Part shown: positions 42,347 to 59,098 of the stretch, one piece after another | Position numbering within the stretch: position 1 is the stretch's first letter | How the letters are laid out: each line of letters starts with the position of its first letter | Source of the DNA: Microglena sp. YARC | Lineage: Eukaryota > Chlorophyta > Chlorophyceae > Chlamydomonadales > Chlamydomonadaceae | Direction of reading: 5' to 3' | Length of the DNA: 64,000 nucleotides | Assembly (NCBI GenBank): GCA_022414725.1 | Contig: CM039462.1 | Span: forward strand, 117,197,966 to 117,261,965 | Translations under genes and position numbers: made by a program | The notes under the pieces: model-generated | The model's database searches: none | Told to the model about the DNA's origin: nothing | Seen by the model: the letters and a program-made list of their open reading frames with translations, nothing else

Positions 42347-42403
42347 TTGGTGAATGAGAGAAAATACAAGTTTGAAGCTGTGGCTGTTATCAGAACTTAC
42401 AAG
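42347..42403 (+). CDS. SDR gene, first visible exon (19 codons)
   Basis: The acceptor is gttag just before TTGGTGAATG; the donor is ACAAG|gttgcg, phase 0. It encodes [19 protein letters not shown], which corresponds to the end of helix one and strand two of the Rossmann fold (KF.A.GLVR in plants). A TAG in frame immediately upstream supports an exon boundary here. The donor is less consensus-like than the others, so the exact end is less certain. Confidence 0.6.

Positions 42404-59098: not shown

Follow-up and report, generated by a model that had tools for sequence, protein, structure and literature searches.

Truncated tandem copies of exon edges in the introns of an SDR-like gene and of other genes in the green alga Microglena

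Results

An SDR-like gene and its surroundings

The window analyzed here is a stretch of 64,000 nucleotides from contig CM039462.1 of the Microglena sp. YARC genome assembly (568 Mb in 2390 contigs). A single plus-strand gene fills positions 42347-59098 (Table 1). Its six readable exons yield a CDS of 774 nt, that is 257 codons and a stop, in agreement with an earlier note on this DNA according to which six real exons join in frame over 257 codons, and all five readable introns are of the GT..AG type. The predicted protein matches PF13460 (80.6 bits, curated cut-off 27.2) as well as the Arabidopsis structure 1xq6 (At5g02240; E 1.3e-57, query residues 6-243 of 257). By homology, the gene is assigned to the At5g02240-like NAD(P)-binding proteins (atypical SDR, PF13460). 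The best match is an unnamed metagenome protein (67%); the best named matches are from green algae (Chlamydomonas eustigma 60%, C. reinhardtii 55%).

The run of exactly 1000 N directly upstream of the readable part resembles an arbitrarily sized scaffold gap and conceals exon 1 or intron 1. Comparison with homologues gave no convincing upstream match for exon 1 among the matches listed; this exon is inside or beyond the gap, and the N-terminal glycine-rich nucleotide-binding motif may lie there with it.

Several other features were observed in the window. Upstream of the gene, GC skew is very strong (0.59-0.74 per 2-kb block between 18 and 40 kb), and from 38 kb onward the sequence consists of an array of about 75-bp units. 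We considered the array as a candidate set of exon-2 copies and rejected it (score 27 versus a mean of 26 and a maximum of 33 with 10 shuffled queries). Intron 4 contains, on the minus strand, an open frame in which three C..C..H-type zinc-finger-like repeats are seen by eye and for which Pfam matches were sub-threshold only. A reverse transcriptase open frame (PF00078) lies downstream of the gene; a relative 93% identical over 71% of this frame is found on an environmental contig, and this relative represents 70 member sequences.

Table 1. Positions of the gene, the exon-edge copies and other features in the window and at two CCT-alpha loci
Feature	Sequence	Position	Strand	Remarks
Very strong GC skew	window	~14000-41325		
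Array of about 75-bp units	window	from 38 kb on		upstream of the gene
Run of N	window	41326-42325		
Exon 2 (first readable)	window	42347-42403	+	gene model
Intron 2	window	42404-47191	+	26 acceptor-side copies of exon-3 start, 22 reach the junction
TRF arrays in intron 2	window	between 42487 and 47085		
Exon 3	window	47192-47434	+	gene model
Intron 3	window	47435-50537	+	16 donor-side copies of exon-3 end (138-bp unit)
Acceptor-side copy of exon 4 in intron 3	window	50284-50396	+	n = 1
Exon 4	window	50538-50695	+	gene model
Intron 4	window	50696-53879	+	
Donor-side copies of exon 4 in intron 4	window	50808, 50970	+	n = 2
Acceptor-side copies of exon 5 in intron 4	window	51115, 53694	+	n = 2
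Open frame, 273 codons, in intron 4	window	52207-53025	-	
Exon 5	window	53880-53926	+	gene model; 47 nt
Intron 5	window	53927-58158	+	20 donor-side exon-5 copies, largely of a 102-bp unit (55061-56643)
Acceptor-side copies of exon 6 in intron 5	window	56868, 57078	+	n = 2
Exon 6	window	58159-58303	+	gene model
Intron 6	window	58304-58974	+	6 donor-side copies of exon-6 end
Longer decayed copies in intron 6	window	58748, 58859		two copies
Exon 7 with stop codon	window	58975-59098	+	no copies of exon-7 start found
Reverse transcriptase open frame	window	60700-62232	-	PF00078
Private intron	L046	3213-4894		CCT-alpha
Real exon with frame-breaking difference from P0242	L046	4895-5166		sign of residual assembly indels
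Private intron	L045	7497-9303		CCT-alpha

Introns of the window gene carry copies of the adjoining exon edges

Comparison of the exons with the introns of the gene by blastn resulted in 59 matches. Of these, 58 are plus-strand matches, every one located in an intron adjoining its own exon; the sole minus-strand match is 16 nt long (E 0.002). With a more sensitive local alignment, in which each query was an exon edge together with 20 nt of intron, we identified 75 copies at 8 of the 10 exon edges across the five introns, none of them on the minus strand, and 70 of the 75 touch or span the splice junction. Each of the internal exons 3-6 has copies of its start and of its end. At the local-alignment threshold, the end of exon 2 and the start of exon 7 have no copy in the adjoining introns, although exon 2 scores 27 in its own intron versus a shuffle maximum of 20. 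Edge-by-intron scores, for which the 47-nt exon 5 served as one query for both edges, are 54-120 in the adjoining intron versus 33 at the top of the dinucleotide shuffles (20 per intron), and no comparable score was obtained for exon edges against the non-adjoining introns of the gene.

The exon-bearing arrays consist of direct tandem TRF units of 66-219 bp (66, 102, 138 and 219 bp). In intron 6, the 66-bp unit holds 9 exon nt and two longer, decayed copies are present; one of the six copies in this intron is a weak, gappy, GT-rich alignment. The earlier note had reported copies of an adjoining edge in all five definable introns and had listed the copied edges intron by intron; the 75 copies bear out the first statement, and every item of the list is correct. 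The constant order that it described, donor-side copies downstream and acceptor-side copies upstream of the real exon, is found as well but adds no further regularity: geometry suffices, because a tandem copy spanning the donor must fall downstream of the full exon and one spanning the acceptor upstream of it.

Exon-edge copies recur in other genes of the genome

The pattern is shared by a second PF13460 gene and by chaperonin and HSP70 genes, and is thus not confined to a single gene, an outcome that the earlier note had left possible. In the second PF13460 gene, truncated acceptor-side copies precede one exon (L011) and a donor-side series follows another (L012). No copies were found within 1.5 kb per side of the PF13460 loci L001, L003 and L005. 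Four chaperonin genes were picked from 64 match rows for having matched exons within 10 kb; they were chosen before self-comparison, with the caveat that a pair of overlapping rows had by then suggested a repeat in the C5 gene. Local copies were found for 17 of their 26 matched pieces, with none on the minus strand. Three of four HSP70 genes have copies (3/6, 5/6 and 6/8 pieces, two of these 8 being copies themselves), one of the genes examined, L063, being a biased choice made after repeated rows had been noticed; the HSP70 gene in L061 has copies for 0 of 6 matched pieces. Altogether, copies are present in 8 of the 9 multi-exon genes self-compared over the fetched span (the window gene, L044-L047 and L060-L063), and additionally in the L011/L012 gene. 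In a wider test over 1.5 kb per side, 17 of 36 matched pieces, several from one gene and a few of uncertain orientation, have copies (70 copies, 0 on the minus strand). Among the 19 pieces with no copies in this range are two single-exon genes and a broken copy; all three pieces of two multi-exon chaperonin genes, C4 and C5 at 27.0 Mb, are also copy-free at 1.5 kb per side.

Parts of the two CCT-alpha genes L045 and L046 were modelled with the annotated proteins P0241 and P0242, which, by their very close match, should be the annotation of the same organism. Out of 11 CCT-alpha junctions, a script resolved 7 with no mismatch, and 4 were set by hand from the sequence. The three modelled genes (window gene, L045 and L046; 16 introns and 32 edges) contain 127 copies at 21 edges and in 13 introns, 121 of which touch or span the junction, and no minus-strand copy was found at any of the 32 edges. 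The three copy-free introns are 76, 99 and 637 nt long.

Growth and turnover of the arrays

Most copies in intron 3 of the window gene share differences from the real exon 3, and the 102-bp units of intron 5 are near-identical, with variants common to the copies and absent from the real exon. Because the copies share variants which the real exon lacks, we read the arrays as having expanded mostly from earlier copies. Conveyor-like growth from the exon edge was considered and rejected: among arrays of at least four copies (n = 10), identity drops significantly outward in 1 and copy length in 2. The sole array with an identity gradient away from the exon is intron 2 of the window gene (rho -0.73). 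Together, the shared variants and the rarity of the gradient run counter to the earlier suggestion that introns grow out of exon edges. An origin of the copies from spliced mRNA was likewise rejected, since the spanning matches obtained for 3 of 16 exon-exon queries all turned out to be plain edge copies or a chance extension of the real acceptor.

The exons of the CCT-alpha paralogues are 68-83% identical. The four homologous intron pairs of L045 and L046 have three short exon-derived matches in common and nothing more, and the arrays in homologous introns differ in side and number, which points to turnover of the arrays between paralogues. Each paralogue also has one private intron. Neither private intron contains a relic or copy of the intron-less exon, and we rejected them as fresh gains with such a relic; one apparently spanning match consists of two abutting copies, one donor-side and the other acceptor-side. 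In intron 3 of L045, three acceptor-side copies end at exon nt 106, exactly the position of L046's private intron, and may be complete copies of an exon that existed formerly.

Repeat coverage has no clear peak at the splice junction

In the three modelled genes, direct local repeats cover 70.1% of intron bases (21038 of 29999) and 37.3% of exon bases, while inverted local repeats cover 95 intron bases (0.3%) and 0% of exons. Across six intron bins, direct-repeat coverage ranges from 0.64 to 0.81, with 0.64 at 1-20 nt outside the exon, 0.75 at 500-1000 nt and the highest value, 0.81, at 50-100 nt. Inside exons it is 0.62 at 1-20 nt and 0.25 at 81-120 nt. Because coverage has no clear peak at the junction, the duplication process seems blind to it, exons being spared only further inwards. 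Of 216 random flanking segments, 116 are locally repeated, versus 17 of 36 exon pieces. Ten readable arbitrary 3-kb stretches have a mean direct-repeat coverage of 37% (range 2.7%-88%; the mean leaves out two all-N stretches and is 31% with them), compared with 65% for ten 3-kb blocks of the three modelled genes. Given this difference and the 0.81 bin, duplication, or the survival of duplications, may not be uniform. Breakpoints at simple-sequence tracts were unsupported: repetitiveness is 0.47 at copy ends versus 0.39 at random intron positions, with 7 of 21 edges at P < 0.25 where about 5 are expected.

These data bear on the process proposed in the earlier note, namely one that acts on exon-intron borders. 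Such a junction-targeted process, for example transcription-, splicing- or R-loop-linked breakage, would copy the borders so that introns grow from exon edges. Copies at 21 of the 32 edges would fit, as would the position of the top coverage bin, the outward rise of divergence in intron 2, the outward decrease of copy length in two arrays, and a survey that, in its excerpted text, finds tandem repeats denser near intron-exon junctions in two green algae (PMC3887541). Against it stand the coverage profile and the random segments, which are repeated about as often as exon pieces; direct repeats are also abundant in intron interiors and in arbitrary genome stretches, and 9 of 10 arrays have no significant identity gradient. 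We thus regard targeting of the border as unlikely.

Copies evolve with relaxed constraint

The copies are about 74-100% identical to the exon and variously truncated, and stop codons are found within some translated copies. Substitutions at codon positions 1:2:3 amount to 145:104:197 in the copies (deduplicated) versus 42:23:199 in real paralogous exons, which suggests that coding constraint on the copies is largely gone, with third positions still in excess. None of the 127 copies contains a whole present-day exon; under uniform placement the chance of this is 0.0008 with the observed spacings and about 0.006 with a 166-bp TRF unit for one array, so that, the unit lengths being uncertain, the absence of whole-exon copies is suggestive.

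Splice dinucleotides were counted in two ways. In a set of 82 edge-spanning copies, GT is retained in 83% of 36 and AG in 87% of 46; neighbouring dinucleotides are retained at 0.75-0.94 on the donor side and 0.52-0.87 on the acceptor side, which places AG at the top of its range. In a looser count, splice dinucleotides are retained in 57 of 62 copies on the donor side and in 48 of 55 on the acceptor side, slightly more than for two average positions (89-90% per base). Neither purging nor preservation of the splice sites was accepted, there being no clear difference from neighbouring positions. The small excess in the looser count is what one might expect if the copies were functional, as alternative or cassette exons, recursive splice sites or decoys that regulate splicing. 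We find this quite improbable, given that retention in the edge-spanning set stays within the range of the neighbours, that the codon-position pattern is relaxed and some copies contain stops, and that no copy holds a whole exon. In addition, P0241 and P0242, which may be predictions (P0242 skips about 20 residues and P0241 ends early), have no copy-derived residues. In the window gene, the real exons still join in frame despite the competing copies, and the spliceosome likely must pick the right copy.

Assembly artefacts and mobile elements

An assembly artefact, in which noisy long reads were collapsed or expanded to false tandem copies, is very improbable. Residual assembly errors do exist, as seen from the frame break in a real L046 exon, the indel-rich arrays and the N gaps. 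On the other hand, the degree of identity to the exon and the varied truncation of the copies, with substitutions shared in blocks, speak against such an origin, as do the intact frame of the real exons in the window gene and the recurrence of the pattern in unrelated genes on several contigs; the local mis-assembly considered in the earlier note is not borne out. Introners (intron-spreading elements) or transposons, the former being a source of introns in other lineages according to the accessible part of PMC9860276, are scarcely credible as the makers of the arrays, as copies in the window gene match their own adjoining exon edge and not other introns, and none is on the minus strand.

Discussion

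We consider blind tandem duplication combined with a selection filter, with half-exons ignored through exon definition, the probable explanation of these arrays. Local tandem duplication would be frequent in this alga's DNA regardless of gene structure, the underlying mutation presumably being replication slippage or unequal exchange. A duplication would be retained if it leaves the spliced message unchanged, which would hold when it falls within an intron or crosses exactly one exon edge; the latter should be harmless because the full exon retains its own donor and acceptor. Duplications within an exon or of a whole exon would alter the protein and would mostly be removed by selection. Introns would consequently fill with direct arrays whose unit is part exon edge, part splice site and part intron. 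The first copies would be amplified like minisatellites, then accumulate mutations under weak coding constraint and turn over between paralogues. Exon definition would most likely ensure correct splicing, a half-exon with a lone acceptor or donor going unrecognized.

A broader version is conceivable, in which exon-edge capture dominates intron growth in the lineage, most introns carry competing near-identical splice sites, splicing is strictly exon-defining and transcription through junctions may help duplication; we regard this as unlikely. The system is of value in several respects. A single genome with many such events, differing in age and spread over several gene families, makes raw material, fate and selection filter countable. 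With 16 donor-side copies in one intron of the window gene and 26 acceptor-side copies in another, it offers a natural splice-site competition experiment. It presents one way by which this lineage's introns lengthen, and gene prediction in such genomes may choose a truncated copy over the real exon.

Single new introns are known to arise through tandem genomic duplication, the examples in the excerpt of PMC4974935 being vertebrate ATP2A1, fission yeast and the potato RdRp gene. As outlined there, tandem genomic duplication leaves the peptide unchanged in the Rogers model, the classic form of which starts from an exonic AGGT; in potato, the duplicated DNA is an intron-exon structure lying upstream, and two fission yeast genes show repeated duplication of a 24-bp exonic segment (PMC4974935). 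The alga resembles these cases in that the duplicated DNA includes exon sequence and splice signals. Its copies, however, span a junction that existed beforehand and include intron sequence, and unlike the single new-intron events in that excerpt, existing introns are enlarged, a single edge having as many as 26 copies; this is seen on either side of internal exons 3-6 of the window gene and across three gene families of the genome. In Drosophila, five probable cases of tandem duplication or sliding were reported among 31 novel intron positions under a proto-splice site criterion (PMC2891723, excerpt). There too, duplicated exonic sequence turns intronic, but the excerpt describes no arrays at old introns. 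For green algae, the available portion of PMC3887541 reports a repeat density that is highest in introns and greater near junctions (C. reinhardtii 42,059 bp/Mbp). Repeat-rich introns are thus common to both; the repeats in that portion are short motifs such as GT/AC, and units containing exon edges and splice sites are not described in it.

The arrays are also similar to minisatellite (VNTR) arrays in having direct head-to-tail units of 66-219 bp that are amplified within the array, with variants common to the copies, but differ from them in that the units straddle splice junctions, each with a donor or an acceptor. In tandem (cassette) exon duplication, exon sequence is repeated in the adjoining intron. 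Such a duplication involves a complete exon with both splice sites, unlike the alga's copies, which hold one edge only and in 0 of 127 cases a whole exon. Introners differ in placing the same element in many unrelated introns, whereas copies in the window gene match the adjoining exon edge only. A literature search covering titles and abstract openings, with few subscription journals, found no account of half-exon arrays at splice junctions in many genes of one genome. The earlier note likewise knew of no described system with this regularity; single tandem-duplication events are known.
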